From contig VXCM01000300.1 of the NCBI GenBank assembly GCA_014773175.1, positions 122,665 to 186,664 on the forward strand: a stretch of DNA of 64,000 nucleotides. Reading direction: 5' to 3'. The position numbers and the translations under genes are program-made. This stretch comes from Lucifuga dentata (lineage: Eukaryota; Chordata; Actinopteri; Ophidiiformes; Bythitidae). The notes below the pieces were generated by a model that did not search any database, was not told the origin of the DNA, and saw only the letters and a list, made by a program, of their open reading frames with translations. Below are positions 19,701-61,343 of this stretch, piece by piece; within the stretch, counting starts at the first letter, position 1, and each line of letters starts with the position of its first letter.

Positions 19701-21258
19701 CAAACCCTCTCCTTTTGGCATAAAGCTGAGGAGGACCAACTATTCCCTTCGCTTCCACAGTGAACAGTCAACAGAGAAAAGGAAGAAACGCTACAGCGCT
19801 GGGGACAGCTTTGACGGGATTCCGTCCCCTCTCACGCCCATTGAACCTGATTCTGATACTTCCTCTGTCTTTTCTGATAAATCAAGTCCCACGTCGCCTC
19901 AAAAAGAGGGTGTGGCTGGCAAGTATTTACACACAGCTGCCTCCCCAGCTATCCCTCGGGCCAAATCCGGTAGGTCTGCCAGCGCAGTCACACCCAGCGA
20001 AGGTGAGAAAGTGTTTTCCAAGCCACCTCTCTACCAAAGACCCACAACGTCACCCAAACCTTCTGGAGCAGTCCCTACCCCTCCACCCTCGCCACTACCT
20101 AAAGTGGCCCGTGGTGCTCCCAGTGATGCCATAATCCAGAGAATAGGGGGTNCCCTCGCCACTACCTAAAGTGGCCCGTGGTGCTCCCAGTGATGCCATA
20201 ATCCAGAGAATAGGGGGTGCAGATTCATCTAGCCAGGAGCACACACACAGGAGTGAGGAACCATCAGCAGTGGACCAGTTGCAAAGGAGCAGCCAAGGAC
20301 AGATTCAAGGGGAAGAGGAGCCTAAGGAGAAGAGATCCTTCTTCCCCTCCATTAACATCCCATGGAGAGAGAAGGCAGACAGAAAGACAGAGCTCATCAG
20401 GAGAGGTAAGTGTCATTTGGAGGTGTAGAGTCAATCAGGACTTGTTCTCCAAAAAGTGACTTAGAAGGGGTTTCAATTCCAATCTCAGCTTTTTTGAAGC
20501 AAATCTTTGCATGGCTTTATGTGACTTTGAGTGTATTATTACAATATTCATGTGTTCCCCCTATAGAAAAACCATCACTACAGAGCAGGCACTCACTGGA
20601 TAGCACAAGGGTCCAAGAGAAGGAGGCAGGGCCTCTGTGGATCACACTGGCGCTGCAGAAGCAGAAAGGCTTCAGGGAGCAGCAGCAGACCCGAGAGGAT
20701 CGTCGTAGCCAAAGAGAGGCCAAACTGGCAGAGAAACAGGCCAGGGAGAGAGAAAGTGTATGCGCCTTTCTAAATGTTTCTGCTGATCACACACAGTTTC
20801 ATACTCTTCAGGTAATCATATCAATACATCGTTTTCAGGTTACATTGGCCAGCCCCACAGATAGCAAAGGAAACGGAAGCAGCAGTCCATCTAATCCTCC
20901 AACACCAGAGGAGCCCAAAAGACCCGACAGCCTCCTGGGACGCTTTGAGCACAGAGAACAGCTGAAAAAGGCCAACACTCTTCCCAGCTCTGTCACAGGT
21001 AAGAACACGATCAATCAGGATGCCGCTAACATCTTTCCTAAAATGTCTTTACGGTGTAAAGAACAGAGTTGGAACTGATTTTTGTTCTGGGCTTCAGTTG
21101 AAATTGCAGACTTGACACCATCACCACTTGCTGTCAAGGAGGTGTCAAAACGCTTCCCCACCAGTGACTCTCCACAGGTGTCCACAGAGCCGGCCTGGCT
21201 GGCCCTGGCCAAACGAAAGGCCAAAGCCTGGAGCGACTGTCCTCAGATCATCAAATAA
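13221..21258 (+). CDS. cracd: Capping protein-inhibiting regulator of actin dynamics (CRACD/KIAA1211)
   Basis: CRACD restrains actin filament capping and so supports F-actin assembly in the cytoplasm. Nine coding exons: 13221-13287, 16156-16324, 17154-17286, 17368-17523, 17653-17865, 17965-20405, 20567-20757, 20839-20998, 21098-21258. Without a 67-base assembly artefact at 20152 they give 1207 residues; the human protein is of similar size. Residues about 29-43 are basic (FQPFRRLFGKKKKRE). RALSHDSIFIPEEP and SQENISDKV match the human start. GTIESINLDAVP and RLDNTAAKHKL lie in the conserved N-terminal region. Residues about 287-518 are an E/R/K-rich coiled coil. AILVTGAQLCGTAVNLDQIK, PFGIKLRRTNYSLRF and WLALAKRKAKAWSDCPQIIK (C-terminus) are family hallmarks. 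The first two exons extend the N-terminus beyond the human start I remember; their phases join cleanly. Location beside aasdh favours cracd over its paralogue cracdl. Confidence 0.9.
13585..14235. mobile_element. Short dispersed element with inverted ends, copy 1
   Basis: Lies in cracd intron 1. The left end reads ATACCTCCGCCAAGG and the right end CCTTGGTGGAGGTAAT, its near-perfect reverse complement, so about 15-bp terminal inverted repeats are visible. Inside are CTGGATCCGGACC and a poly-A run at 14043-14071. A second copy in the opposite orientation occurs at 62.05-62.79 kb. It is a non-autonomous DNA transposon-like repeat; a SINE fragment sits inside it. Confidence 0.55.
13713..13835 (-). 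mobile_element. tRNA-like SINE fragment (5' part, minus strand)
   Basis: On the minus strand it reads GTGGCACAGTGGTTAGCACT, GTTGCCT, then GGGTTTGAACCC. These are the A-box and B-box regions of the common teleost SINE-like repeat whose full copy is at 56357-56696. Only the head is present. Confidence 0.65.
16719..16775. repeat. Poly-T/N/poly-A junction
   Basis: A run of about 25 T ends at an N (16744) and is followed by a run of about 30 A. It lies in a cracd intron. The sudden switch of strand composition at a single N suggests two contig ends placed together through homopolymers rather than a natural palindrome. Confidence 0.7.
20086..20218. other. Assembly artefact: 66-base contig overlap written twice
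   Basis: Bases 20086-20151 and 20153-20218 are identical, separated by a single N at 20152. The repeated unit is part of the large cracd coding exon. Removing one copy and the N (67 bases) restores one continuous frame through SPLPKVARGAPSDAIIQRIG and on to the splice donor at 20405. The apparent stop at 20167 is therefore not real. Confidence 0.9.
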
Positions 21259-23003: not shown

Positions 23004-26000
23004 CTATGTTTCCTTTTTCACTATCAGCTTTAAACAATACACATAGTCATTGCGACACCCGACCACGAGGGAATGCTCCCACACCACCGGGGATGAAAAC
23101 AGCTCCCCAGGAAGAGTGAATGAGGCCACCAATAGTCCATCTTGACCATCCAGGATCCAGATTGTGCCATCTGTGGAGGCCAGAGCCACAAGAAGCCCTC
23201 TTCTCCCAAAAGCAGAGCCATCAAACACACATGGACTGGAGTAGACCCTGCCAGATGTCTGGAAAGTCCAAACCAACGAGCCGTCAGCACTATTCAAACA
23301 GTACAGGCAACCATCGTGCGATCCACACAGAACATTCTTCCGGTCTGGTGTGAAAGATGGGGATGAGAAGACGGGTCCCTTCGTCAAAAACTGCCAAATC
23401 TGCAAAGATGTCAGATGCAGAATGTCAGAGAAGTAGTAACGTAATACACAGGGAAGAACTGAGCTGAGCTTTTCACCATTTTTCCCATGTTGCTAAAGCA
23501 ACAGATGTTTCCATCGACCGAGCCGATCACAACATCGCCACTGGAGACAACTGGTGACGAGAAAAATGGAACGTCTCTATGGTGCAACCACAGGACCTCT
23601 CCACTGTCCTGTCATAGGAAAACGACCAAGCAAAAACCCTGTCTAAACATTTCTTAATGAACGAAATGGCAAAATGGTTTCCTGAAGGACTGTGCTCCAC
23701 TCACAGGGTTGAGACAGAGTAGGTGTCCTCGCAGTGATGCTACGTAAAGCCGTCTGTGGGCAGAATGAAGGCATGGAGAGGAAAACACAGCCCCACCCCC
23801 ACAGTGACGCTTCCAAACACACTGATGAACCTAGAAAACACAATACATATTTAATTTATCATCACACTACTGTAACGTACCAAACTGATTTTTTACACCT
23901 GGTATCCCATCTGTTCATGTCAGACAAACACACTCACTTTTGGGTTCAGGGCATAAACATGTCCATCATGTGAGCCCACTATCACCAGACCTGTGAGGGG
24001 ATCTACAGTGGGACTGCTCTTCACAGCATCTCCTGTCTCAAATGCCCACCGTGTCTCTCCAGAGGAAGCACACAAGAAATACACATGACCATCATAGCAA
24101 CCTGAGACAAAAACACAAAAATAATCCACAAAACCATAATTTAGGGGAAATTTTTAAAAAAAAGAAGCAGCTTGAGTGCTGATACTGACCTATAATCACA
24201 AGGGTCCCACACTGAGACACAGCAGCTGAGGCCTCGATTCTGTCACCCAGGACTCTTTCCCACAGAAGGTCACCCGTGTCTAAGTCTATGGCCTGCATCC
24301 TGTGAGAGTGCGAGCCAATGAACACAGTCATTTTGGCCAAATCTGACCTTTGACCTACTTCTTCTTGCACTAGAAGAACTGGAGAGGCATCCACACATCT
24401 GCCTGTGTCTGAAGACCAGCTCAGACTCAGTTCCAAAGATCTGGACTCCACATGAGGAGAGCTAAAATCAGTAAAACCCTGTTCACCAGCACTTGCTGCC
24501 AAGCATCTGTCGTGTATTTTCACACTGGAATCAGACCAAAAGCTTTTATTCGTGTCTGGATTTCTAATCTCTATTTCTATCACCTCACTCGCTCTCCTTA
24601 TAACTTTCACAGGCTGTTTCTCAGAAGAATCTTCATCCTCCTGAAAGCTCCCTGCTGCTGTGGAGTCTTTGCATTCTCTCTTTGCTGCTTCCACAGAGAG
24701 ATATTCCACAGTGGGCCGTTTCTTGGCTTCAGACGTTGATGACGAGTTTTTCTCGAATGGCACCATCAGTGTTGCTCTCAAAACATGGCGCAGTATGTCT
24801 GAAAAGGTCCCATCCAAAATGACCTCCAAAAGTTCCGGTAAGGTCACTTCTTCGACTGAAGTTGCGATGTCTTCGCAGAGACGCAAGGCCTTCAGAGAAT
24901 CTCCTCCACTGAAAAGGAATCTGGATTCATCCTCAACGGCCGCATCTGCAGCAAGACCCAGAGAATCCTGTGAAGAGTTAGTTCATACTGTAACTAGCTA
25001 CATATTCAGACAACAAAATATGGAGATGCATTATCATACTGTAACTAATGAAAAACTGTGCATACCTGCCATAAAGATTGAAGGGTTTGCTTTAATTTTT
25101 CCACGTCTCCATGTGAAGAACCAGACTTTAAACGCAGCCTCTGTCTTTGGTATATTTTCATGAGTGCATCCATGTCTACTTTGCCTGCAAAATAACAAAA
25201 GGGCCAATGAACTGACATGAGGATTTGTGAAAACAGAAATGGAATAAGCTCCTCAGGGCAAAAGTCTGAAACCACAAGGCTAATGCTCACCATGAGGAGA
25301 AAGGGATAAAGCCGGGACAAGCACCAGCGCGTCTGGAATGCTGTAGGAGGGCAGAAGCAGGGAAAGCTGCTTCACAATGAGTCTTCTCAGGTGTCTGTCT
25401 GCACTGGATGTCTCCTCGTGATGTTTAACAGATGGGGAGATGTCTTCCTGATGCTCAGCACAAGCAGAGGGGATTTGATCCACACACTCTTGTGCAGATG
25501 TGAGGGGAAAAGCGGTGTTTTGGTTTACAGATGTCGATGCCACAACAAAGGCAAGCAGTCGAGAGCTTTCATCGAGACCCACAGCGCAGGCCTCCACATC
25601 AGGCAGACTTAATATGACCTGAAGGAGGCAGTATGACAGAATAAAATACAAGTGACAATCATCTGACAAATGAATAACATTCCAGATGAATCGTGATCCT
25701 TTACTGGTGCAGTCTGAGAAAAGCTGTTAAGGTGCTAAGACAGATTCAAATTTGGTTATTCCAAGTGCAGGTGGCCTCCTGTAAGGCTGATAAAATGTAA
25801 ACTTACCTGTTTTTTAGCTGTTTGTTAATAACCCCAACTCCAATACAGTTACAATACCAGCCATTTTCATTTTTAAATTCAGTTGAAGATTACTCTAGAG
25901 TAACATTTGGAAACTTTACATATATTCATGGCTGTCGAGATAGAACAAGCAGTTTTTTTCTTATTTTCCTGAAAAGTTGTAATGTGGAGATGCAAGATTT

Positions 26001-29000
26001 TTACATGCAAACAGCACCATCTCTGCATCTTTAGCACTGCCTTCAGTGGGGTACGGAGGACCTTTAATATATTTTGATTGCTTTCAAAGTGTGTATGTTG
26101 TTGTGTATTACGCTATATACAATTTCTGTGAATCACGTGAGGGAGCGACATTCACTTTTTTACATGACATTTGAGTTGGATTTATACAATTTTTTCTCTT
26201 GCAAATTTTGCATTTTTAATTTCTATAGCATTTCATTTTTGCAAAATAGTTTAGTTTATTTGTTTTCACTTATATCAAAATAAATTTAAAAAAAAAAGAA
26301 ATTTCAGAAAAGAAAAAGAAAAAGAAAATGTGAGGAAGAGCTGCAAAAAACCCTCAAGGGGCTTGAACAAGGCAGTTCTCCAGTAGATAAATGACAATAT
26401 TTAAATTATAAGACAATTTGAAAAAGGAAAATCAGAAAAATAAAAATAAACAGCAAAGCAAAACAATAAAAGAACATTTGGAATTTCTTGGAATAATACT
26501 GGCAAAATACCAGACTCCAAAGGCAACACACAAAAAAGAGTTTAAAGCGAAAGTCCATTTCGCTTTAAACTCTTTTTTGTGTGTATATACAAAAATAATT
26601 AAACAGAAACAGTAAAGATGTCTTACTTGCTGCAAACAGTTCAGATTGACCCGTTTTCCGTGCCGTTTGATCAGCCTGTCTCTCCGTCCCAGGTAGTACA
26701 ACTGCGAGTCTTTAACCTTCACCCAGTCTCCAGTTGCTCGCATCGTCATGGGGACAACAATGTCTTCATCATCTAGGAGACACACTCTGTCCTTTCCACC
26801 TACACGAAAGATTGGAAAGATTTACACAGATTTTAGTCACCTCAGTATGAGACACATGTGTTGCATATCTGTCACCAAAATCTAACCCACCTATGAACAC
26901 TTGTCCTTCACCCTCTGTGACAATGCAACCATGTTCATCTCTTATTTCCACAACTGTGTCCATCAGAGTGGTCCCAAGAGGCACAGAGGTCTGTAAAGAT
27001 CTGTAATGTTCAATGATGATGTAAAGATGTATTAACCACACATCTGGACAGATGCTTATTTGCAGTTGTTAAAGAGAAAATCCAAACAGGAAACACTCAC
27101 AGGACATCAGACTGCAATAGAGCTTCAGGGATTTTGTAACAGCAGGCCCAGCATGAAACCTCAGTAATACCATAAATATTATAGATGTTTGTTTTGTTGT
27201 TCTCATGTCTCCAGCTTCTCAGCAGAGCTGGTGACGGACAGGCCTCTCCACCCAGAGCCAAAACACGCAATGAAGAGCCAGCAGACAACACCTCCTGTTT
27301 TAAAATATGGCACCCGAATCGGCCAAGCAGGGTCGGTGTCACCTGTGAAAATAAGAAAATACATCATCAAACTAAAAGAAATGATTATCTTTAGACTCCA
27401 GCTGTGATTTTCGTCTCTAAGGATAAGTTATCTGAGCCAAACATTTACCTGTAACACAGTCGTTTTGTGATTCTTGAACAGCAGCTGAGCCAATCGTTTG
27501 GGCATTTTCTTGATCACAGCGGGGACAATGAGGAGCTGAGCCCCTGACGATAAGGCCAGGAAAATCTCCACCACAGAAGGGTCAAAGGTTAAAGGGGAGG
27601 CAAGGAAAACCACATCGTCTGCATTCATTTGGAACAAAGACCTGAGCACAAAGGGTGCTATTCATCAATAACAACTTCCAGTGCATTTAAATCAAGATAA
27701 TAATGATGATCTTGAGAAAGCAGCAGCGACAAAAAGGTATAAGTACTGACCTAAGGTGCAGTATATTGGGTACGATACACTTGTGTGGTACCCTCACAAT
27801 CTTTGGAAGGCCTGTTGTTCCAGATGTGTGTAGCACATATGCCAAATCTGCCTGTCCAGTGTTATTTACCACAGCGATGGAAGCGGAGAGATGGAGGTCA
27901 TCCACAATCCTGACTTCATTTTCTTCTGCTCCTTGGTTGTGTGCAGCAATTGGCAGTGGCTTCACCTGAATCAGGGTTAACTTGTATCTGGGCAACATCT
28001 CACATAGATCCACACTCATGTAACTGATGAGAGATGTCTGGAATTGCTTGATGGGAAAGAGAATAAAGGAAAATATATTCTAACATGGACAAACAGAGAA
28101 GACATCAATGCATTACAAATATGTGTTAATATTGAAAAAACTAAAGCTATGATCTATGATCTGGTAAACAACAGGAGTGGTGCTAGGGGTGGGCTTACAG
28201 GGCTTAAGCCCTGGATGTTTTCCACAAAGCCCCAAATCTTTTTTGTAATTAGTGTGTTTTGAATTTTCTGTAGCGTTTTTGCAGTTACCCAAATTCATCT
28301 CCAAGGTGGAACCACAGTGTTGTGAACAGATCAGTCGGACCGATTTGGTGGACGGAACAGACATAACACACCATAAAGCTCCACTGTTTAGATCATTGTA
28401 AAGGTTTTTGTTTTAAAACATTTTAAACTTCATATAACTTTTTAAAAGATGTAACATGATTTGTTACATTTTTTTAAGCATTTCTCAAAATTTATATTTA
28501 GCTTTGGTAGATGTAAAATAGCTTTGAACTGGGCTAAGATCTGGGCTAAGCCCTGGATCTCCACTTACTCTAGATCCGCCCCTGGTAAACAATATATTAA
28601 AATCTGCCCCAAATTATGATGTTCCATATACTAAATCCCTCATAATTTCTCCTGCTATTTTGTTTTACAGTGACAGTAATAATTACAAATTTTAACCTGG
28701 AGCAGTTCAGTCTGCACAGCACAGTAGTGGATGCCATTCTGTCTCATGATGCGGGCAGAAAGAAACCCTGGAGCATCTGGATCCAGTGGTACGTAGGCTG
28801 CAGGTGACTGGAGGATCCTAACAAACAAAACATAAGATGATCAACCAACCTTCCTAATATGGATATTAATGATTTCACGTGTCTGATATGACAGACAGCT
28901 CACCCCAGAATCCAGACGGGTAAATACAAATCAGCATGGCAATAAAGCGCGATCAGGCTGTTATGAAGAAAACAGTTCGTCCGTAGAACATGAGATAATT

Positions 29001-29157
29001 CGTTTACAAGTGCAACAACATCACTGTATAGCAGAGACACAGAGTTCCCAGACACGGAGCCGCAGTCATGTGTCACCGCCACTCTGGAAGCGTGCAGAGA
29101 GGCAGCGGCAGCTACAAGTTCCTGCAGTGTCCTGGAATCCATGGGTGACCTGTTCAT
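23004..29157 (-). CDS. aasdh: AASDH (ACSF4, beta-alanine-activating enzyme)
   Basis: The protein belongs to the adenylate-forming family and joins an adenylation domain, a phosphopantetheine carrier and a PQQ-type beta-propeller. Fourteen exons: 29157-28904, 28817-28697, 28046-27751, 27641-27449, 27342-27101, 27000-26891, 26799-26627, 25618-25291, 25184-25066, 24967-24190, 24101-23938, 23830-23705, 23608-23477, 23399-23004. Sum 3432 bases, 1143 residues (human about 1098). AMP-binding motif HTSGTTGLPK lies near residue 205, followed by YGITEV, TGDWVKVKD and the A10-type lysine in SPHGKVD. The carrier serine is about residue 636 (FSGGDSL). From about residue 780 on, propeller blades repeat motifs such as VFIGSHSHRMQAIDL and VIVGSHDGHVYALNP. 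The start may be Met at 29157 or at 29142 (MDSRTLQELV, nearer the human start). The gene is divergent from hjurp and convergent with cracd. Confidence 0.95.
26526..26584. repeat. Perfect 27-bp inverted repeat with 5-nt loop
   Basis: The left arm at 26526-26552 and the right arm at 26558-26584 are exact reverse complements (core AAAGAGTTTAAAGCGAAA), with the loop GTCCA. It lies in aasdh intron 7, about 43 bases from the end of exon 7 (26627). No N is present at the centre. Confidence 0.9.
28172..28584. mobile_element. hAT-type MITE with perfect 8-bp target duplication
   Basis: The element begins CAGGAGTGGTGCTAGGGG and ends TCTAGATCCGCCCCTG, which are imperfect terminal inverted repeats (CAGGRGYGG...). 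It is flanked on both sides by the 8-mer GTAAACAA (28164-28171 and 28585-28592). An 8-bp target duplication with CAGG...CCTG ends is the signature of a hAT insertion. It has no coding capacity. It sits in aasdh intron 2. Confidence 0.85.
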
Positions 29158-29736
29158 TCCATCTATTCTGAGAAACAATTTATAATAAAACCATTATTCT
29201 ATATTAATAAATTATGATCGAGAACATTTTCATATTTAGGCAGACCCATGTTATTACGATTGTTTGTCGCGTGTAGATGACACAACACACGAAAACATTA
29301 CGTCGCATCAATGCTGCAGTTGGGTGCACAGCATACGGTCGTTAATCTCAGCATCATAAACTCCGACATCATTCCGATTAGTTATGGTTGCGATAATATG
29401 TGTTGATGTCTTTAATGTGTATGCTCCAAATGTTGCTGCACAGAAACACATTAGAAGTGCAAAACTTTGACGCCTTCCATAGTATTTCGTTTTGTTGGGT
29501 CTTCCCATTGCTTTTTTGTTTTTTTTAATTTCATCTTTTTTTTTTTTTGTCATAGAACTGAAATTCCCCAGGTACAGCGAAGGCACCACATTCCTCCCGT
29601 CCAATCATCGCTCACTGTTTCGAGGCAGAAATTTTGAACCGAAGTGCGCCTTTCTTTCTTAACGACCGAACTGCAGCTCGATGTTCTAAGACACTTTTTG
29701 CTTTCAGCATTTAGTAAACGTCACTTCTATTTGCAA
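29158..29736. promoter_or_regulatory. Bidirectional promoter between aasdh and hjurp
   Basis: The aasdh start (29157, minus) and the hjurp start (29737, plus) face away from each other with 579 bases between them. A CCAAT box is at 29601-29605 and a TTTGAA (CHR-like) element at 29633-29638 on the plus strand, about 100 bases before the hjurp ATG. CCAAT plus a downstream CHR is the arrangement of genes expressed in G2/M. The aasdh mRNA appears to have a 5' UTR intron, since a splice acceptor lies a few bases upstream of the candidate start. Confidence 0.55.
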
Positions 29737-30034
29737 ATGGACAACGTGGACGAGGACCTTAAAATGAAATTTTACGAAAATGGACTTATCTTCAAGAAGA
29801 CACTGGAACAAATCATCGAAAAGGTGTGTGAATGTTATTTGAAGCAGTCGAGGCGCAGCTACGTTTGTACATAAATGTGGGTCTCTTCATAGCTGCTAGC
29901 TAAAAGTAAGTATTCGGTATAAATGAGGTGTATTCTGTTTTCATGTTTTCAACAGTATTCAAAGCTGCAGTATCAAGATCGAGGGATAGACGTGGACCTA
30001 GAGACAACAAAAATGCGAGGTCAGTTAACGCTAC

Positions 30035-30098
<64 letters not shown>

Positions 30099-31359
30099 GT
30101 TTCAGCTCCAAAGCAGAAGTGCTTATGTGCAACAGGGGTCAGAAATAAAAAATAAAACACAACGTGCTGGCTTTCCAAAACAATCAAGTATACATAATTC
30201 ATAAATTGTAGTTTTGTGCGTATGCTTAAACGGTAGTTGTGCCTGTAAATTGGTTTCATTCTGTCCCCTCTGTCTTCTTGCATGATGAAGAGATGAAACA
30301 TTACATGAAGCTGTCAAAAAAGAAGCTGACGGAGTTGGATTCAAAGGTTTGGCTATTTATGATCAAATACATCTGACGCACAAAACGCAAAATACAACAA
30401 TAACACTATTACAGACTGGTACCTGCTTGTGTTTTACATTCATGTGGGAAATGACCCCTCTGTAAGCCATTACAGTTTTAACAGTTTCAATAGAATGCTG
30501 TTTTGATTTTGTATTTTCAATGTAGATGTGAAATGACAATAACTATCATTCACACCAAATGAAAGATTAGACTGATGTTTTCTGATCAATTAAATGTCAA
30601 AAAACAATTTAAAAATGCCTATCACAATGCATTTTTTTTTAGAAGTTTTTAGATGGCCTATTTTGAGAAACTAGAATCAGATACTGTTTGGCTTTTTACT
30701 TGATAAGTCACAAATGATGACATACTGTGTAAGGAGTTGATTTTCTGTCAACTATTTTGATTAACTATCTTGAGTCCATTGTAAATTATTATGCTCCAGT
30801 CCTCCAGCAACTGAGCTTAAAGGTGTGGTCATGAATTAAAAAACAAAAAACAAAAATAGAACCCAACTTATTTATTTTTGTCACTTTGTCACTGAATTCT
30901 GGAATAAATATGACATCACTGTGCAGCTTTTACAATGAAAACATGTTGTCTTTTCCTCAGAGCCTGATGGATTTGAGAGAGCAGTCACTAAGAGGTCAGT
31001 ATCTGTAACACCTGATAGCTATGGTGATGTTTATTATCGTGCTCTGTATATTTCATCTAAAGCAATTATTTTAATATTTCTTCCACCACAGCCCAGGACA
31101 TCACAAGCAACACACAGGTAAATGTACTTAATGATGTTACGGTGTTATCTCAGTTACCTCGTGTATCTTTTCCATAATTCTTTTAGTTTATTTTCAACAG
31201 GTGTACTTATCACATGAAGATGATGCAGCTGATGAATCTTGTATGTCCAGTACACATTTTGGTGTGCAGGATGATGGTGAGAGTAACAAGCAAACTTAAT
31301 TCATGTCAACAGATATTTAAGTCTTTGTGTAGTTGGAGAAACGTCAATCTAAAAGAAGT

Positions 31360-31398
<39 letters not shown>

Positions 31399-33398
31399 AC
31401 TAACTTGTATTTCTTATGAAAGTAAACTAACTGTGCTTGTCCCTGTGTGTCTCCCGTAGCGATATTTGAAAAAAACAATACTGAGCAGACTGGGAGCTTG
31501 TCAGATGAGAGACAGAGGAACATTTCAGGGGCAGAGCTCCAGCCCGAGGAGGAAGACGAGGAACTGGAAAACTCTCTGAGAAGTCAAGGCATCTCTTTAG
31601 TGGAACTCTACCCTAGCATTATCAGCCAAATAGGGCAGGCCTGGCATCGACAGGAAGTCTACAACGCTGCCGACTCGGTGCGGAGGAGGTACCGCAGATG
31701 GCGATGTCTGCCTAGCAGAAGCAACCTCAATCGCACCTTTGATGTCCCACTGAGAGATGCGAATGCCAAACCAAAAAAGATGAACAGCAAAGCCACGTCA
31801 AAGAAGACCTTCACTCGTTCTCCAAAAAGGAAACTCCCAGAAACACTCGTCAAACGCACTGAAACTGCTCCGCAAGTAACCAATCTGCAGGGCTGGCAAG
31901 CAGGGCAGTGGTCTCCTGACAAGAAGCAAGGTTCTCTGAGAAGAGGTCAGCATCAGCCTGTCCTGGTGATGGACTTCTCTTGTATCAATTCATCTGAGCT
32001 GGAGAATTCTAAGCTAGGAGATGTCTCAACAGAGCAGACCTTTACTGTGCCTGAAGTTTCCCTTCTTTCTACCTCCTCACAGCCGATAGAACAGCCCTCT
32101 GCATTCATTGTCAGTCCCACATGGCCTTGGTATCCCACCTTGAAAGCGTCTGTGGACTCCCCTTTGAAGCCTAACTGGTTTTCTCAGTCCCCACGCACAG
32201 TGCAGAAGCCCAGGTATCCCATCTATGCCTTAGAAACCTCTGCTGTCACAGGAGATCCCTCCATCCACAACTCCCCAGTCAGACAAAGTCCCTTAAAAAC
32301 ACACCTGATGCTCAGGGATCACGCCGGATCGCCTCATGCTTTACCCAGAAGCCCCAAGCCAGAGTCTGCAGGAAGCTGTTGTAAAAAGTTGAGGAAGTCC
32401 AGCCTGATGGCCCCTTTTCTATCCTCTCCTCTGTCCTCTTCTCGACAAAATCCTACTGTGTTCCCAAGGAGGCTTTTTCCTCAAGACTCCTACCATTTAT
32501 TCATGTCACAATTGCACTCACCACAGACAGCCTCAGCGTCCAGTCATCACAGGCCCAAGCGGCGCCTCTCCTTTGATTCCTCCCGACCAGTGAGCACCAC
32601 CTCTTATTCTCCGAAACAGCTCGAGGACGAGTTCACAAAAGTCTACCACAAGTACGTCTGCCTGGGCAAATCATCTCCCTCCGGCCCTCCTTGCCACATG
32701 TGTGCGAGAAGCTCTCGGGCCAGCAGAGGTCACTCTTCCTCAGTGTTGGCGGCTCTCATCTTGTCTCCCCACCGATCCATGCTAAGGAAGCGCCACAGGA
32801 ACTCGGACTGCAGCANCTCTCATCTTGTCTCCCCACCGATCCATGCTAAGGAAGCGCCACAGGAACTCGGACTGCAGCAGCAGTCCCCTGTGCAAACAAT
32901 CCAGGTACGAGCACTTTGGATACTCCCCAGGATCCAAACGCCAAGCCAAAGAGATGCTCCAGCACCGTCTGTCTCCATCAGGGTTAGAGGCATCTCATTA
33001 TGACCTCCCCCAGATCTGCAGCAAACATGCCACAGCTCAGAGGTTCACCCCCCAGCGGCCTTCACGAGAAGGACAACAGGAAGGCTGGATGTCTAAGGGC
33101 CAACCTGTACATCAGAGTCTTCTGACCTCGGTAAGGGTCCTATGGAAAAGCTTTACCTTGCAGTACCAGATCATTTATTTCCTGTCAGGTTAAATGTTTG
33201 TGACGCTGAATCCTGTGATCCTTGTTTCCTAAGGTAAGGTTTTTTTTTCTACCCTTAACAGGATCGTTTGACAGAGCAAAATGGCAGTGATTTGTTTTCT
33301 TCAAGGTAATGTATTTTTGTGTGTGTGTTTTTTTTAATTCTCACAGCAGGCTCCTTTTAATTCCTCTTCTTTCTCCAACATGTGCAGAAAGTTGCTGA
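29737..33398 (+). CDS. hjurp: Probable Holliday junction recognition protein (HJURP/Scm3-type CENP-A chaperone)
   Basis: HJURP binds CENP-A/H4 and deposits it at centromeres. Proposed exons: 29737-29823, 29956-30019, 30291-30346, 30961-30994, 31092-31117, 31201-31276, 31460-33130, 33262-33305, 33347-33398. About 681 residues remain after removing a 64-base artefact at 32816. Residues 26-50 (IIEKYS, then DRGIDVDLETTKMR) resemble the Scm3 CENP-A-binding motif. Residues about 159-207 (ISLVELY, RRRYRRW, NLNRTF) resemble the HJURP middle domain. Residues about 501-517 (EDEFTKVYHKYVCL) resemble the HJURP C-terminal repeat (human EEFDKLHQKYCL). Between these the chain is Ser/Pro/Lys-rich and probably disordered. 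The last two exons are uncertain, because a different acceptor would change the final residues. An upstream in-frame GTG is not used as a start. Human HJURP lies elsewhere (2q37). Confidence 0.75.
30039..30098. repeat. (CT)n-(CA)n compound microsatellite
   Basis: About 22 CT units run directly into about 8 CA units. The tract lies about 20 bases after the donor of hjurp exon 2, on the intron side. Confidence 0.95.
32753..32879. other. Assembly artefact: 63-base contig overlap written twice
   Basis: Bases 32753-32815 and 32817-32879 are identical around the N at 32816. The unit lies in the large hjurp exon. Dropping one copy plus the N (64 bases) restores a single frame reading RSMLRKRHRNSDCSSSPLCK to the splice donor at 33130, with phase 0 as needed. 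Confidence 0.9.
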
Positions 33399-34578
33399 AT
33401 AGAGATGAAGGCTCCCATGGGAAAGCTCGCCCACATCACTTCATCTGCCACTAGTGGTGAAAATGGTTGATCCTCATTTAATAAAGATGTTTGTGTTAAA
33501 GTGTTTTGAAGGAGTTGGGCAACAAATGTCATGTCATGTTAAACAAAGCACCTCTGTTGAAAATGTGATGACTGTATAGCTAATGGTGGAAACGTGAACA
33601 TCATCAAATGCATAACATTGTTACTTTATCAAAACTGATTTTAGAATCTGCTACCACCAAAGTGGATATGGATACATAATGCAAGTTATTGTAGTCCACC
33701 TCATGTTGTTTTAATAATAGTTTTAACTGCTTTTTATGAATGTTTGATTTTAAGTAACTGCAAAACCCCTTCAATTTGTTTTGGATTGTTGTTTGGATTG
33801 TTATTTCTGTAGCTCAGTGGTGTGTTGCCATCACTGAGGTACTGCATGTTTGTCTTATTAATCTGTTTAGTATTACCTTCAAAATAAACTTATTCTCGTA
33901 ATACTTAAACTCAACTGTGCTATTCTCTGATATGTCAAAACACATTAAAAATATTTTTATTATTGCAGTCTGTTTAACACATTTAGTTTTTCTTTTATTC
34001 ATGGTAAAAAGCATCAGGACCAGGACATTAATGATGTCCATAGAAAGTTTACAACTAAATAAAAAAATGAAGATATCCAGCCATTAGACCCTTCAGGCAG
34101 ATTTATAACTGAGTACAGTGGTTAGTACCGAGTAAACATCTCAACATATCTGATAACGTAAGTTAAGACACTTTTGGTAGCTAGACTTGTGCGTTTACTT
34201 ACATGGTAAATTCTAACAAAAATCCTCCTTGACACAAAGTCTTGGAATGTTAAGATGTGCAAAATGTGTATTCAGACCTGTATGAAAATATATTTACAAG
34301 AGACATCTAAAAGACTTTTAGCAGGAATATCGCAGAGTAGAGGAAAAAAAAAAAAAAANGAAAAAAAAAAAAAACACTGGTGTATTCATTACATTCGTCT
34401 GTCCCAGATAGCAGTGCTTGATAAGAGGCATTTCTTGGTTTCATTCTTGAGAAATCGCAAAAATAACAAGGATCGGCTGTGGAGCTCAGGAAAATACGGA
34501 TGCTTGCAGTAAATCCACAGTGCTGTTGCTGCTGCAGTTAGATGTCTCGTGGCCGGCGGTGGTGTGTTGGCACAGCAA
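33399..34578. other. hjurp 3' UTR and ppat 3' UTR, convergent genes
   Basis: No protein-coding exon seen. The hjurp 3' UTR carries an AATAAA at 33480-33485. The ppat 3' UTR enters from the right; TTTATT on the plus strand near 33992 could be its polyadenylation signal. A poly-A tract with an N at 34359 is present. Confidence 0.5.
33480..33485 (+). promoter_or_regulatory. Polyadenylation signal AATAAA, hjurp
   Basis: Canonical hexamer about 80 bases after the proposed hjurp stop codon. Confidence 0.55.
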
Positions 34579-37500
34579 TTACCACTCAAGCTCTACTGGA
34601 TATTTCCCAGTCAGACAGGCAGTGCAGTGGCCGACTCTCCTGCCGGGCTTGTTACTAGAAGTGATCATCTTATCCTTCTCTTGGATGAAGTCAATTCCCT
34701 CCTGAACAGCTGATACCAGGCCTTCCACAGTCAAATACTGAACGCTGTCAGCACCTGCACAACAGGTAGAGTGTTTACTGATGTGTAGTGAACAAACCAA
34801 GGACATGATAAGGCACTTTAAGTCAGGAAATGCTTAAACGATTAAATTTGTCCTGGCACAGTGTATATGAGCTTTGTTATAAGGCTTTGGCAACAAAAAA
34901 AAAAACATTCTGAGCAGTAGGCTGGAATTGTGTAATGGTTAGCCTCAGTTTATGAAACTTAAGAAATCTACTTCACTTTGCAAAAGTCAGAACAGAAGAA
35001 TTTGAGGGATTTGAAAATATCTTCTTAAGTTTTGTTTTCTAAAAGTTGGTGTTTTCTTTGAAAACTGAGAATCAAATGTAAATGCAAATAAAAAAATGTA
35101 CAAATTATCACATGAAAAGAGACAAACTGGGGTTACTGTGTCTGCAACACCATGTCTCAGCAACAACACCGTGTCTGTTAGTACTGGTACTTACCAATAT
35201 ATCCAGCAATATCCTGAAATTCTGGTTTGTTGGCAATGAGCTCTTCCTTGGTGGGAATGTTTATGCCCATGTAACAAGGGAACCTGATAGGTGGAGAGGC
35301 GACTCTGATGTGGACCTGTCACAGAGGAATTACAGATCAGTACTCTCAAGTCATCCTGCCACAAAGACCAATGTCAGACATTTGACTGGTTGAAAGTGAT
35401 GACTGGCACATTTATGGTTACAGGGGATGTTAAGTAAAATTCATCGAGGGTGTGAAAATTTGAAGGGGGGGNGGGGGGGGGGGGGGAAGAGCAAAAAGTC
35501 TGTCAGATAAACAGCACCCTAACCCTGCACAAAAATGTGCCCACGTGTGCAGTATCCATGACAATTTGCCAAGCTCCATTCAACAAACCTCTGTTGCCCC
35601 TGCTTCCTTCAGCAGCCGTATTATTGGTGAGATGGTGTTGCCCCTGACAATAGAGTCATCAATTAGCACCACTCGTTTCCCAGCAAAGTTGTCTGTCAGT
35701 GCCCCAAACTTCTTGGCAACTCCTAACTGCCTCAAACGGGTGTTCGGTTGAATGAATGTTCTCCCAACGTAGCGGTTCTTGCACAAAACCTCTATGTAGG
35801 GCAGCCCAGACTGCAAGAAGAGGACAAGAGGAGGCCAGTTTAGGAGGGTAGAGGCCTGTTAGGAGACTTGTTTATTTCCAGCGTGTACTGCAGACAGACC
35901 TGCTGAGCGTATCCCAGAGCAGCAGGCGTTGCAGATTCTGGCACAGTGCTGACCACGTCTGCGTCTGTTGGAGCCTCGATGGCTAACTGCCGGCCGCAGC
36001 GCTGCCTGACAGTGTAGACCATCTGCCCTGTAACGCAACAAAGTACAACATGTGTATATACATATGTGTAACATGCTTACACTTTAATTGTAAGAGATCT
36101 ACAGGGATGACAGTATTAAAAAAAAAAAAAAAAAAAAAACACAGATTAGAAAAGATAACTAGGACTGAATCAATTAAAAAAAAATTAACTAATCGCACAG
36201 ATTTCTGTGATTAATCGTGATTAATTGCAGAAACTTGTAATTATACATTTAATCACCAAATTAATGTAGATTAATTCCCTGTTAAAAATCCTTGTTTACT
36301 GTATATGCTTTATAATATCTTTATAACATCTCAGACCTCTTACAGTCCTATATCTTCAAGAGATCCCTTAGGTCTTCAGGTCAGAGGTTACTGGAGGTGC
36401 CCCGTACCTGTTTGAGGACTCGTGGAAATCGTGCTTTTCAAGTGGTTGCTCCTAAACTGTGGAATGAGCTCCTATCCTCCCTCCACTCCATTGATTCTGA
36501 GGTCGCTTTTAAAAGGCAGCTAAAGACTTTCTTTAGCTTGGATAGTATTTTAAATCTGTGGTATTGATGGTCTGTATTTCTATGAATTTTCATTTGTTTT
36601 GTTTGTTTTATGTTACTCATTTTTTTTTTTATCTGTGAAGCACTTTGTGACTTTTGTCTATACAGGGCTATATAAATAAATTTTACTTACTTACTATTAA
36701 ACTGTTTCTTTAGTTTGTCACAGAAATAAGAAGCTCCACAACTTAATTTATTTTATCTTAAAGGAGTAACTTCACTTTATAATAGATCCATTGCATTTAT
36801 TTTATTTATTTTGGGCTAACTAACACTTTCATTGAGTTCAGAGAAGAAACTACCTTGGTTGACATGTTAAAAGATGTTTTCATGTTATTCATGGCTTCAG
36901 CCACAAGGTGGCATGTCAAGGTTGACATGTTCTTGTAAGGAAAATCATCTTATTCTGAAAATCTGACTTTGTTCAAGGGAAAGTCCTTCTTATTCTGAAA
37001 AGACTGAATCCTGTTTTTGTTGAGTTATTTAACCTTAGCTTGAATGTATCAGGTGCAGATACGGAGAAAAACGCAACGCAGTAAAGCTAAAGTGAGACTA
37101 AAAAGCTGTGAGGTTATTTTTGTTGTTTCTATGTTTTTGATTAATAAAGTTACATCTGAAAACGACACGTTGGTGAGCAACTGAGTTTGTGTGTGGTTTC
37201 AACAAGAGCCATCTGGTAACTTTTTAAAACAGAATTTTCCATCTAAAAGTCTTATCTTTTTCTTTCTCCATAATTAGTGTGAGCATATAACGTTAGCCAT
37301 AGGAAGTGGGGGAAAAACGAAAACATTAGCATAGCTTCAGGAAGTGAAAAAACGGATACGTTAATAGCATTATTTTTTGTTTAACGCGTTAAACATCCAT
37401 ATTAATTGTAAAAATTAATGCATTAATTTTCCAAGCCCTAATAATAATGCATACCCACTAACACATTTCTTACCTTCAAATATAGAGTCTGGTCTGGCAA

Positions 37501-40500
37501 AGTAAACGTATTCAAAAATGCAGAAGGCAGGGGGATCTCCCCCAGGGCGAGAGACGACACTCAGAGACTTGATTCCGTGTTTGGAAATCTGGACTATCTC
37601 TCCTGGTAGGACCTCCCTGTAATACCTGAGAATCAGGAGGGTAAAGAGAAAAAGTTATAACACACACAGGACCAGAATGGAATTACAATAAGGAAGATGT
37701 TGTGTGTGTGATGAACATTTACTTTGCTCCAATGGACTGAAAGCTGCAGGACTCTGATGAAACAACCCAGCCCTCAGTGTCTTCCTCTCCAGCACCTGAC
37801 CAAGGGACAAAGGATGTAGTTAATTATCCACAAGCTTTGACCCCTGACCTCTGATGAAATCTTGCTCACCCATGTGACATCAAAAGTGCAGAGGCTAGAA
37901 TGCTGATAACTTCATGTGAGGACTCCTCTTTATCAGCACAGGAATGTGGATATTTTTAAGGACATTTTTAAGGATATTTTTAAGTGTTTCTGATGCAACT
38001 GGAAAGCATGGAAACACTCGTATACCTGGACTGTGCAGTTTAGAAATGGGAACGAGCCGTCCGATGCAGAGGGGTCGATTCCCGTAAGGGTCGCGCACAG
38101 CATAGATAACATCTTTGTGCATCATCAGCAGCGAGTAAGACGTAGGGGTCTCTGTCATCAGATTTTTAATTCTGTAACACAAAAAAGCAATCATTTAAAT
38201 TGATTTGCAGAAAGTAAGTAATGATTTTAGGCAACATTATGGCATAACACTCACCTGGCGACCCAGTTTGGCGCGTCCACTTCCTCCATAGGAGGAGTTA
38301 AAGCCAGCAGCTGGGTGATGAGTTCGCTGTCTGAGCTGGTGGACAGTCCGACACCATGACGCATCACCTGTAGGACGCATTTAAGAGATTTATGCATCAC
38401 ACACACACACTGAGGGTTAATTAATTACATCCGTTTCCAAGCATATTGCTCATACTGTAAAAAAAAAAAAAAAAAAAAACGGTTAAAGGACCATACCTGT
38501 GATTTTGCATGTTAAGCCCAATATACAGTATAAACCCACATACATGTTATGTTACTGACAGCTAATTTCCGAAACATAAAACCATGTTTTAGTTTTCCTG
38601 ACATATTTTTCGAAATCCCCCATCCTTTCAAAATCAAATATTAAGGTGATACATCCACCGTAAAATTCAACATTCTAACACTTATGCATGATTGTACAGG
38701 ACACGGTTGTTTTAATTTTTCTGTAAAAGCTGTCTTCTCCTGGCATTATATTTCCTGGTGGAGACATATATGGTGCTCTGTGCAGCGCCGTGTTAGACTG
38801 GTTAAATAAAGTTACTTTGACAAAATATGTAATAGAAAAAGTGTTCGTTGTGATGTATTACTCATCTCAAGCACGTTTTAATAGTCTACAAGTTGATTTT
38901 AATAGCGTACTGGAATGAACTGAAACCAATGGTAGTGTGGAAGGTAGGAAAAACAATTCAAATATTTAACTCTCCAGTAGTTTATTTTGGGAAATGGTTG
39001 TCAGTAACATAATGTGTATGTGGGTTGTATATATTGGGCTCATACATGCTATATCGCTGGTATTGTCACAGATAGCTAGAAGCACACAAATTTCACCGCC
39101 TACAATGTCACCACCTCCTGTATTGTTGTGCACGTGACAATAAAAATCATGAATCTTAAGGAGATCATGTTAATACATCTGGTTGAGCATGGACACCCTC
39201 ACCTTTTTCCGCAGGGCCTGAGCATTTATCAGCTCTCCGTTATGCGCTACAGCAATCTTGCCGTGGAGCGTGTCCACTACAAACGGCTGACAGTTCTGCA
39301 GCTCTGAGTTTCCCGTGGTTGAATAGCGCGTGTGGCCAATACCAAGGTTACTGTACCGAAGCTTCAGAAGAGCCTCGGCTGGGAAAGCAACGCTCACTAG
39401 CCCCATCCCCTACAAGAAGAGAAAAGAAACCAGTCAGGAATGTCACCCATGCTGTGCACAAAAAAAAGCTAAGAAAGCAGGAATATGCAGGAGTGTGATA
39501 AAGTGAAGTCAATCAGAAAACACTCAATAAAAGGCATTAATGGCATGCTGAATAGCTGAAATGCATAAACAGCTATGTGATTTTAAGGAATATATTTAAG
39601 GGAATATATTTCATTACAATGTCACATTTTTTGGATAGAAAAGGAGAAATGATCCTTTCTTGTCTACATTTTGTAAGATGGTGCTTCTGTCATATTTTTG
39701 TTTTCACAAGATGCTTCTGCTACCTGATTTAATGTTACCTTGAGGGTTGTGTATGTGGGAGGGCTGGCTCCATTACTTGTGACAATTCCGGCGCTCTCCT
39801 GACCCCTATGTGGATAAACAAGTACAAGTTAACAATAAGCCAGTGCAAAGTGAGTGCCTAAAATCTCTCACTCTGTTTGCTGCAACAAGAATAAACTTGT
39901 TCAATTCCAACAGTCTGATTGTGAGGCTAAAGGCAACCAAACCAGTTTGAGTCTATCAAAGCAGGAATGGAGGGCAAAGCAATAAAAAACAACATGTCTG
40001 CTTCTCAGCGGTGGGGGCTGCCTTATATGGAGAGTCGTCTTGCTGCAGTTCCAGCCTATTTACCAAGCTGCTTCTCGGATTACACTTTGTCCCGCCCCCT
40101 CAGCACACAGCTTAAGCCAGTAGTAAGGCTGCTTTTCTGCATGGAGGCGTTGCTTTCAGGCTTAGCCGCCTGGTTGCCTAGGGAACCAGGCAGCAGAGAG
40201 AGACGGGCTGGGGGGAAAAGAAAGCGTTTCCAGGTCAGCTCAAACATGGAGAGAGGAGCAGAGAGACAAAGAGGAGGTGATAGGGAGGTGGTGGAAGTGA
40301 AAGCCGTGGTGGAAAGAGAGTGGGGGGAGGCAGAGGTTCTGGCTCTTGTGACCGTGTGGGACGAAGTGGGAGCTCAGCACACGGCTGAGAGCAGGGCCAC
40401 ATTCGAGTTGATCTCAGAGCGTCTGAGAAGGCTCAGCGTCGTGCGCAGCTGGTGGGAGTGTCAGGCTAAGTGCAGGAGCCTGGGCCTGCAGAGCAGGAAG

Positions 40501-42943
40501 ACTGAGGCTGCAGGCACATCAGCAAACTACAGCTCAGGAGTGGAGGGAAGGCCAGCACAGGGCTGGGAGGAAGAGGACGAAGATGTGGGTAGTCAAAGAG
40601 GAATCTACTCTTCTCCAGTCACTGTTCCAATGCAGGAAGGTAATTGTAGGTTGAAACCCAACCATGGTGATGATCAAAATAGGACAATGCTCAACACATT
40701 TTAAAAAACTCAGATGCCAGAGGGGAAAAACATGCCTCAATATATCTGAGCCTCTTAATTGAACCAGGAAATGATCTGTGGATTAATTTTGCTCGCTCTA
40801 AAATTTTAAATCTCATTCTAAACTCAGATTAAATATTTTTTTTTTAAAAGTGGATGCTGAGTCTAATCTGTGATTATTACAAAACTAAATGCCCATTTAA
40901 TCTCATGAAAAATACCGTGTGTATTTGTGTGTGCAGGAATTAAGAGTCGAATTCACGGAGCTCTCCCTTATTCTCAGTGTGTGACTGAAGAAGGGGGCCG
41001 CCACTGGACCGATGAGGAGGTGCGGGCGCTGCTGTGCGTCTGGGCTGACCGAGGCGTTCGAGAGCGCCTCAAATGCACATTGCGTAACAAGTCCATCTTC
41101 CAGGAGATGGCGCGGCAGATGCAGAGAAACTTTGGGGTGGTGCGTAACTGGAAGCAATGTCGAACAAAATATAAAAACTTAAAATACGAGTACAAGACCG
41201 CCAGGAGTGCGCAAGCTTCTGGAACCAGCGGTNTATAAAAACTTAAAATACGAGTACAAGACCGCCAGGAGTGCGCAAGCTTCTGGAACCAGCGGTGGTG
41301 GAGGAGGCCCAGGGAAGTATATGAAGTTCTTTGATGAGGTGGAAGCCATTCTGCTTGACCGTGGACTGGATGAAGGGACTCTGGACATGCAGAAGAGGTT
41401 GTATGATGGAGATTTGGGAGCAGAGAGGCTGCAGACAGCAGCGCAGGCAGCAGCTGCAGAAAGTGAAGTTGTCATTGAAATCGACGATGGTATGTATTCG
41501 GTCTGTACTGCACATAGCAATAGTAACATATCAGAGATAATGAATATTAAAACTACATTTTTTTACAATTTTATTTTCAGATGACAACAGTGATGATTAC
41601 GATATGGATGGGGAGATGGATGCAAAATGGAGAGGAGCAGGTATGCTGCATTAAATAACCCGTACAATTTATCTGTTTTTTTATATGTATAATGCTTTCT
41701 TTCCTTTTCATTCACTCCAGACGCCTCCCACCTAACAGCCGTAGATCCATCCAGCTCAGACCAGTTCTACGTGGTCACAGTGGCAGACACCGGACGAAAC
41801 TGGAGCGACCAGGAGGTGCGAGCACTGATTCAAGTCTGGTCCGACGAGCGCGTGTGCAAACAATTGGAGAGCTCAACCAGGAAGAGAGACATCTTTGTCC
41901 AGATCTCCAACAGGTTGATGCAGCAGGGCATCGAGCGCGACTGGAAGCAGTGCCACACCAAGTACAAAAACCTCAAATACCTTTACCGCTCCCTCCAGAG
42001 GGGCAAGACTAACGAAACTGATCCACGGCGCCTATTAAGGTACTACGATGAGGTGGCTGCCATCATGAACCGCACGACTAGTGGATCACCGCACGACGGA
42101 GTGCCTGCGGACCACCGAGCAGAGTCAGGTGGACGCACTGTGTTGGAGGGCTGTGAAAAGAATGGCCACATAGACGTCTACTTGACAAATTCAGACACGG
42201 TAACAACCGTGCCAGGGGAAACTGAGGAAAGAACTTGCAGCTCTGATTCCGTCTCATCCATCAGCATCGAGGTTCCACCAAACAATACAGAACCGAGACA
42301 GCATACAGGCAAGCCGCACTGCATGGATCAACAGCAGATTCATTATTGAGCCCATCATAATAATTAAATCATATCTAGGATGTAGTTGTGAGATAATTTA
42401 TAGAAGAGAGCTACCCAAACTTCTACCAATTTAAACTTTAATGAAACTGAGGAAAATTGTTCAAATAGGTCTATAGGAGCATAAACAGAATAAACAACCA
42501 AATTTAAGATGTATGAACGATAAAATTCATTTGGAGCACCTCTAAAAATGTTTCAGTAAGTCACAGTTGTAAGTATTTTAAGTCTATCTTTTAGCCATTG
42601 TGTCCAACTTGAAGCACACACGTGACATTAACTAACAGTAAGTTTTTGTTTTATGTTTCAGGTCCGTCTGAAACTCAGACAGATAAAGAGGACACCTTGG
42701 TAGGAAACAGACTAATGAAGAGGAAATTTGTGGATGAAGGTTTGAAATGTGCCTCCTTGTGTAATTATTTTGCATGTCACAAGATTAGAGTTTCGATTCC
42801 ACAGGTCACAGAAGACGTTGCAATGTCTTACTCTGTGGCTCAGTCCCATGATTTGCCATGGAGCTTCATAATGAAATTATGGTAAAGGGGTCAGTTGCAA
42901 AAGCTAACAGCACAGTCCATGATAAACTTTATTATCAGACTAG

Positions 42944-53340: not shown

Positions 53341-53601
53341 AGCGTCACACTGGGGAGAGATGAACAGGGACACACACTTTTATCATCATATAACATCACC
53401 AAACCTCTCTTTTCAGATATCATATTCCTCATATATCATACAAGAGAGAATCCACTCAACAAGTCACATTAAGTTGGCAGTTCAAGTCAGTCAGTACAGC
53501 TGAATGAAGCAGCAAACCAGCCAAATTTCTAATTAGCTCTTAAAATGTAAAACACACTGATAATGATAATATGCTATTACTTTATTCTGTCTGACACACT
53601 T

Positions 53602-54381: not shown

Positions 54382-54396
54382 NGCACACACACACAA

Positions 54397-60600: not shown

Positions 60601-61343
60601 GGTGTTGAAGTGGCAGAGGACACAAGGAAGGAAGTGTTTCGTGCCTTTTTTTTNTTTTTTTTTTTTTTGACAACATTGTCAAAGACAGACTGTTCATGAC
60701 CTTAGATAAGACAGATTGTTACCTGTGAGCTGACGGCTGCAGCAGCAGCAGAGTTCAGTAAAGCCTCCACAGCATCCTCGCAGCCCAGGAAGCCATTGAC
60801 AGACCCCCTCTCTCTGTCTCCTCGCTCTGGCACCCCACCCAAGGCTCCCAACAAAGTGGCAGGTCCTGTCACTTCACCTCCAAACTGCTGCTGTAGTGCT
60901 GCCAGCCAGATCAGGTCCTCCAGCGAGGCTGGGGTGGGACCCTGAGACCCACCATGGACCGGGCTGCCCTCCACATTGCCCTGAGAGCTGGAGCTGATGC
61001 CAGAGGTGAAGCTGTTCGAGATGGAGAGGGGGAAGGAGATGGACGAGGATGATGAAGAAAGGGAGGAAGAGCCTGAAGGTGGGGGGTGGGCATCACTGAG
61101 TGTTGGCGAGGGTGGCAGCGAGTTGTAAGGACTGGAGCTCAAACTGGAATCCTGGGGAGGGTGACCAGTGTATGGAGAGCTGGAGGGGTCATGGGGGAGG
61201 CCAGATTTGGGAAACACACAGGGAGGATTGAGTGGAGGAGTGTCCGATTTCATCTCAAATTTGAGGAGATCAAAGTCGTTGAGATACTCCATGGCCAGAG
61301 GGCTCGGAGGGAGAGAAGTTATGGGGATGCGAGGAGATGACAT
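57637..61343 (-). CDS. nrl: Neural retina leucine zipper protein (NRL), large Maf bZIP factor
   Basis: NRL drives rod photoreceptor genes. Four coding exons: 61343-60723, 60575-60282, 59257-59042, 57795-57637. Sum 1290 bases, 429 residues. The minimal transactivation domain is at about residues 12-32 ([20 protein letters not shown]), followed by Ser-rich sequence and [17 protein letters not shown] His-rich block lies at about 274-300. The extended homology region [20 protein letters not shown] starts at about 310, and the basic region [20 protein letters not shown] at about 341-360. The leucine zipper continues in the last exon ([19 protein letters not shown]). The protein ends PPPDYFL. Introns and the FL end favour nrl, since mafa and mafb are intronless; the His run resembles other large Mafs. 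A splice acceptor just upstream of the ATG implies a non-coding first exon. Confidence 0.85.
58042..58068. repeat. Poly-A tract in nrl intron 3
   Basis: About 25 A residues. A second, N-broken poly-A tract is at 58342-58390 (N at 58359). The rest of the 1.2-kb intron holds no recognised feature. Confidence 0.75.
59943..60257. mobile_element. hAT-like MITE in nrl intron 2
   Basis: It begins CAGGGTTCCCCAACTAGTTT; its right end, read as reverse complement, begins CAGGGATCCCCAACTGGCGG. These are terminal inverted repeats of about 30 bp. Flanking 8-mers are ATCTATAG (left) and GTCTAGAG (right), which agree at 6 of 8 positions and fit the hAT target pattern with central CTA. The interior has repeated GGGCCA motifs and no coding capacity. 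Its right end is 24 bases from the donor of nrl coding exon 2. Confidence 0.75.
60645..60669. repeat. Poly-T tract with N in nrl intron 1
   Basis: A T run interrupted by an N at 60654 inside the short intron (60576-60722). Its true length is unknown. Confidence 0.8.

Follow-up and report, generated by a model that had tools for sequence, protein, structure and literature searches.

Analysis of a 64,000-nucleotide stretch of the Lucifuga dentata genome (contig VXCM01000300.1, positions 122,665 to 186,664 of the forward strand; hereafter the window) revealed a nine-exon gene on the plus strand (29737-33454) that is sited between aasdh and ppat and encodes a product of 686 residues. HJURP deposits CENP-A, the histone that marks centromeres, and we consider this gene, at a probability of about 0.95, to be the HJURP/Scm3 orthologue in L. 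dentata (si:dkeyp-117h8.4 in zebrafish). What was observed here is the structure of the gene, its homology and its collinearity, while an equivalent function of the Lucifuga protein would follow by analogy with zebrafish. All eight introns were found to have GT-AG borders, and the exon phases are compatible, joining the frame to 686 amino acids. The gene is real and, apart from an assembly artefact described below, intact. A first-pass annotation made from the sequence letters had proposed an HJURP/Scm3-type identity, and this was supported by an Scm3 profile match, by three islands collinear with those of mammals and by orthology, through its name, to the tested zebrafish gene.

To our knowledge, HJURP was for a long time held to be absent from fish. 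In the passages of Hollis et al. 2026 (Sci Adv, PMC13322267) available to us, from which all statements on that work are taken, si:dkeyp-117h8.4 was identified as zebrafish HJURP. The zebrafish protein preferred CENP-A/H4 over H3/H4 in pull-down assay and was detected at centromeres in interphase, and CRISPants displayed chromosome segregation failure with a loss of about 65% of the centromeric CENP-A signal (PMC13322267). The same source describes a motif before the DNA-binding region that is common to teleosts and tetrapods, moderate homology of the R2 region, and a single strong HJURP hit in most deuterostome genomes (PMC13322267). A literature search on the name si:dkeyp-117h8.4 turned up no work other than this one, in its preprint and published forms. 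Zebrafish HJURP (NP_001076347.1) is the same gene according to the NCBI naming of the relatives of the Lucifuga gene and, as described, has an N-terminal Scm3 domain, an extra helix next to it, the motif before the DNA-binding region and an R2-like region, a layout that the Lucifuga protein appears to share. The Lucifuga gene differs in coming from another species, and its sole deposited entry is a hypothetical protein that contains a false gap.

The product was searched against a database of 5.8 billion proteins (7987 candidates scored). By this approach, 103 homologues were detected at an E-value (E) ≤1, the Lucifuga protein included, and the weakest of these (E 6.1e-47) was far above chance. 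The top match (P0001) was the hypothetical protein LDENG_00052840 of L. dentata itself. Homologues with a species name were all from teleosts, zebrafish not among them, and at least 32 of the 103 bear the name si:dkeyp-117h8.4. The forecast of the first-pass annotation that such a gene may be called uncharacterised was apt, as nearly all named matches are 'hypothetical' or 'uncharacterized' proteins. Among the 68 matches of 560-760 residues, 61 that have [KT]YS within the N-terminal 50 residues were kept and seven gene models without an Scm3 start were dropped; 50 of these 61 teleost proteins, zebrafish not included, form alignment A1. This selection by itself ensures that Y-S is conserved at residues 30-31 of A1; the preceding K is present in 49 of the 50 proteins. 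When the A1 profile was used to search the protein database, 96 proteins were returned, one of them new (P0104), and none had a name from zebrafish, gar, coelacanth or a tetrapod. A search with human HJURP supplied the best 120 of 181 matches, the named ones all from placental mammals, and 31 mammalian HJURPs form alignment A2.

Residues 6-47 of the Lucifuga protein were found to contain the Scm3 feature set, namely a helix, a KY pair, and alternating acidic and aliphatic residues (IIEKYSK...GIDVDLE). Pfam Scm3 was detected at E ≤1 in 45 of the 50 A1 proteins (best 2e-05), and precomputed PF10384 assignments were present on three of the 103 homologues (P0022, P0048 and P0085). The exon-2 segment KYS...DRGIDVDLETTKMR singled out beforehand is present and Scm3-like, with the K itself forming the end of exon 1. 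No support was obtained for a KY-pair exon border common to fish and human, as the human isoforms examined have no border there.

A1 and A2 were compared by use of hhalign, and the top three local matches proved collinear: Scm3 (columns 2-31 of A1 and 15-44 of A2), middle (158-219 and 261-324, or 261-322 in another run) and R2 (482-500 and 578-595). The summed score of the three islands was 82.7, compared to a maximum of 66.5 in 300 column shuffles, none of which reached it; the second and third island scores were likewise reached by 0 of 300, and none of a separate set of 48 shuffles reached any of the three island scores. For the middle island the score was 28.8 (second-best maximum over the 300 shuffles, 23.4) and for the R2-like island 22.2 (third-best maximum, 19.9); with another column choice these islands scored 21.9 and 28.6, such that scores and rank order vary with column choice and positions agree. 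As few as 14 of 300 shuffles yielded three or more hits, which means that most shuffles had no third score to compare with; the top three were collinear in 3 of 300. Reversed A1 gave scores of 22.9 and 19.7 against the mammal profile. When the fish profile was run with HMMER against the 120 mammal proteins, 13 were found at E<1 (best 0.014) compared to 0 for reversed sequences, and the three mammal domains with their own E<1 were all at the Scm3 helix.

Mammalian HJURP has the same island order as the fish proteins, and the corresponding stretches pair as LIEKY with IIEKY in the helix, SDLYAGML with VELYPSII in the middle and DEIKEEFDKLHQKYC with LEDEFTKVYHKYVC in the repeat (mammal first). 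The fish proteins differ in having one detectable R-type repeat rather than two, no Pfam HJURP_mid or HJURP_C match, and a motif, ALAALALSPHRSxLRKR, that hhalign did not align to mammals. The large exon contains LEDEFTKVYHKYVCL, and the repeat segment EDEFTKVYHKYVCL was present in it as had been claimed. The previously suggested middle-domain-like segment and HJURP_C-like repeat appear as collinear islands in profile-profile comparison only and lack support from the two Pfam families. In the AlphaFold2 (AF2) model of P0001, the main predicted helices (residues 6-34, 49-68, 71-81, 143-156, 161-197 and 499-516) cover the Scm3 helix, the extra helix after Scm3, the middle island and the R2-like repeat.

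Several results weigh against the identification as HJURP. The profile checks suggested at the outset were positive in part: Scm3, found in most relatives, matched the window protein (residues 17-47, E 0.013) at 15.6 bits compared to a cut-off of 24.3, a gathering score that is a curation threshold and not a biological feature, and HJURP_mid and HJURP_C matched 0 of the 50 A1 proteins. With the mammal profile, HMMER detected none of 105 fish-side proteins (104 homologues and the 686-residue model) at E<1 (best 1.6, reversed control 1.4), although two of them had a lone Scm3-helix domain at E 0.079 and 0.53. The hhalign probability of the best match was only 4.3%, and the best island score (Scm3) was matched by 1 of 300 shuffles. 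When mammal repeats were compared to the whole fish profile, R2 landed on the fish repeat (19.0) and R1 elsewhere (18.2). The link to zebrafish rests on NCBI names. No HJURP or Scm3 chain was found by PDB sequence search with the N-terminal 114 residues (two matches, E 0.98 and 1.3) or with the 50-row profile (five matches, E 0.83 to 2.7). Foldseek with the AF2 model returned nothing, which is uninformative either way since that model is mostly disordered (predicted template modelling score 0.27; predicted local distance difference test score, pLDDT, below 50 for 411 of 640 residues).

Two other identities were weighed in light of these results. The protein could be a DAXX-like chaperone that serves another H3 variant and has a helix that merely resembles Scm3. 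Pfam DAXX_hist_bd indeed falls weakly on the same N-terminal helix (E 0.15, residues 5-32) and is found at E ≤1 in 17 of the 50 A1 relatives; the likeness is confined to this one helix, where a partial match of 12.4 bits (cut-off 27) is limited to the final 28 of 84 profile positions. Scm3 scores better and does so in 45 of 50 relatives, the middle and R2 islands follow the order seen in HJURP, and the zebrafish product prefers CENP-A/H4 over H3/H4 in pull-down (PMC13322267), leaving a DAXX-type chaperone highly improbable. Weak single-profile searches and the low pLDDT of 411 of 640 model residues would also be expected of an unrelated, fast-evolving, disordered nuclear protein in which the islands arose by chance or as convergent short motifs. 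We regard this as very unlikely, given that the three collinear islands exceed 300 of 300 shuffles on summed score, and that the like-named zebrafish gene has a product found at centromeres, where CENP-A falls by about 65% when the gene is lost (PMC13322267).

Assuming that the Lucifuga protein acts as HJURP, we infer a role for each of the islands found in fish. The CENP-A/H4 dimer would be held in a clamp formed by the N-terminal helix and the acidic/aliphatic segment past the KY pair; the middle island, together with its basic tail, would touch DNA; and the C-terminal R2-like helix would dock on the Mis18 complex. This docking would lead to placement of new CENP-A at centromeres in interphase.

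We next turn to the large exon, in which the 63 bp at 32753-32815 are repeated exactly at 32817-32879 with one N (32816) between the copies. Read literally, the frame breaks past 32816 and stops are encountered; with the duplicate counted once, the frame is restored and the gene ends at 33454. Thus, of the gene limits originally given (29737-33398), the start was retained and the end was moved to the stop of the restored frame. The window has 19 single Ns: those at 32816 and 41233 lie between exact 63-bp copies and that at 20152 between 66-bp copies, that at 54382 has a 55-bp flanking copy within a simple repeat, four have 15-19 bp of homopolymer and eleven have no copy. On this pattern the 63-bp duplication looks like an assembly artefact, which we read as contig ends that shared a common assembler word and were probably joined unmerged. 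A decayed pseudogene with a frameshift in the large exon, suggested by the stops that the literal sequence meets after 32816, can be practically dismissed, as the frame breaks at an exact 63-bp duplicate around a single N, a pattern that recurs at two other joins of the window, and as the frame with the duplicate counted once reaches the exon-9 stop and retains a motif common to 54 of 61 teleost proteins. The 20152 join lies within an 841-residue open reading frame (ORF; 17644-20166) and the 41233 join within a Myb/SANT-like ORF (40909-41235); the duplicate joins may break gene models there too.

The deposited LDENG_00052840 was identical to the 686-residue model over 640 of 640 residues and lacked 46 model residues. 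Since this gap spans the 63-bp duplicate, the deposited model steps over it, and the gap is false. The residues lost start with HSSSVLAALILSPHRSMLRKRHR. The pattern of this motif was detected in 54 of the 61 full-length teleost proteins, the seven misses including P0001, and most of its positions are almost invariant in A1. No mention of this loss was found in the available passages of PMC13322267.

The number of repeats was examined by comparing blocks within each alignment. By this approach, the mammal R1 block found R2 in the remaining mammal alignment (score 72.3) and the R2 block found R1 (64.8). By contrast, the teleost repeat block gave a best score of 16.0 against the rest of the teleost alignment, with nothing comparable to the mammal pair (50 teleost proteins, zebrafish not included). 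The teleost repeat resembled mammal R2 (18.3) more than R1 (13.9), block scores that make its assignment to R2 a modest one. In the 50 sampled teleost proteins, one Mis18-binding-type repeat is detectable; a second copy may have diverged too far to be found. Human HJURP reportedly needs two repeats for centromere recruitment. It is conceivable, although somewhat less likely than not, that teleost HJURP functions with only one Mis18-binding repeat and that dosage is met by HJURP dimers, another Mis18 stoichiometry or a second docking element. A candidate for the latter is the widely conserved ALAALALSPHRSxLRKR motif, possibly facing CENP-C and controlled by cyclin-dependent kinase. No discussion of one versus two repeats was found in the passages of PMC13322267 on the R2 region, Mis18 and repeats.

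Additional copies were noted among the homologues. Croakers have several HJURP-like proteins per species (Collichthys lucidus P0065 and P0069; Larimichthys crocea P0047, P0054, P0093 and P0101), and P0065 and P0069, encoded on two contigs of equal length, both have a stretch past the middle island (QPNRSYVNNTFIVP...) in several copies and a precomputed PF15311 (HYLS1_C) domain. This pattern suggests either gene duplication with internal repeat growth or assembly/annotation trouble. P0010, from another cusk-eel relative (Genypterus blacodes), has by eye an internal duplication of an SPHRVQKA...PRRLFP stretch.

Table 1. Coordinates of the Lucifuga HJURP gene, its islands and its neighbours in the window.
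Feature	Positions	Strand	Basis and remarks
Exon 1	29737..29823	+	MDNVDEDLKMKFYENGLIFKKTLEQIIEK; Scm3 alpha helix, last residue is K of the KY pair; AF2 helix 6-34 (P0001)
Exon 2	29956..30019	+	YSKLQYQDRGIDVDLETTKMR; remainder of Scm3 domain, acidic/aliphatic; Pfam Scm3 at residues 17-47, below cut-off
Exon 3	30291..30346	+	Second helix, just C-terminal of Scm3; AF2 helix 49-68
Exon 4	30961..30994	+	Agrees with P0001
Exon 5	31092..31117	+	Agrees with P0001
Exon 6	31201..31276	+	Agrees with P0001
Exon 7 (large exon)	31460..33130	+	In frame only with 63-bp duplicate counted once
Exon 8	33262..33305	+	Splice model, agrees with P0001
Exon 9, including stop codon	33388..33454	+	Splice model, agrees with P0001
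Middle-domain-like island, LVELYPSII...NRTFDVP..., about residues 161-220	31597..31776	+	hhalign; AF2 helix 161-197; no Pfam HJURP_mid match
Single R2/HJURP_C-like repeat, PKQLEDEFTKVYHKYVCLG, residues 499-517	32611..32667	+	hhalign with mammal R2; no Pfam HJURP_C match
Teleost C-terminal motif, HSSSVLAALILSPHRSMLRKRHR	32731..32799	+	54 of 61 full-length teleost proteins; absent from P0001
Stretch omitted by LDENG_00052840, 46 residues (duplicate counted once)	32731..32932	+	Comparison with P0001
Apparent assembly artefact, exact 63-bp duplicate around single N at 32816	32753..32879	.	Sequence comparison
aasdh, head to head with HJURP gene	23010..29142	-	Pfam; inferred start codon 29142
ppat, downstream	34582..39409	-	Domain matches 35583-35858 and 39173-39409; limits beyond these from ORFs alone
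CCAAT box and TTTGAA (CHR-like) element, 27 bp apart	29601..29638	+	Ends 99 bp before start codon

The proposed placement between aasdh and ppat was supported on both sides by Pfam domain matches at E ≤0.01, found in five of seven stretches on the aasdh side (23.0-28.1 kb, minus strand; Beta-prop_ACSF4 and AMP-binding, ACSF4 being what we take to be AASDH) and in two of three on the ppat side (35.6-39.4 kb, minus strand). The first aasdh exon (28903-29193) had no Pfam match, so the aasdh start codon is an inferred one; it is 594 bp from that of the HJURP gene. Human AASDH and PPAT presumably lie at 4q12. Human HJURP is placed at 2q37.1 in the part of PMC10070699 available to us, and the Lucifuga position, suggested earlier to be new relative to human, differs from it (one fish locus compared); the gene may have moved in either lineage. 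Among the matches listed in a literature search joining HJURP with aasdh or ppat, only other subjects were found. Past ppat, the order is two Myb/SANT-like frames and then paics (plus strand).

Elements ahead of the start codon were also examined. An element like the cell cycle genes homology region (CHR) has a role in G2/M promoters, and CCAAT/TTTGAA pairs were counted three times in the window compared to a mean of 1.35 (range 0-5) in 20 random 64-kb sequences. With this count, the pair gives no more than a hint of a G2/M promoter ahead of the HJURP gene. Elsewhere in the window, the Myb/SANT-like DNA-binding frames between ppat and paics (40909-42346, plus strand) matched Myb_DNA-bind_4 at E 4.5e-17 and 2.3e-16. 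A Ras-like GTPase, which we take to be perhaps of the RGK kind, was found at 51198-53379 (minus strand), with an exon at 51198-51446 (Ras, E 1.1e-10) and a weak P-loop match at 52966-53379. A large Maf transcription factor was located at 59012-61427 (minus strand; bZIP_Maf E 2.8e-27, Maf_N E 2.1e-05).

As judged from the available passages on zebrafish, the teleost HJURP class is already published, and the possession of HJURP by fish is no longer new (PMC13322267). Our analysis adds an HJURP from an ophidiiform fish (Lucifuga), a correction of its deposited model, the position of the gene between aasdh and ppat, and the observation of one repeat. The one-repeat architecture raises a testable question, namely whether vertebrates in general require two Mis18-binding repeats.

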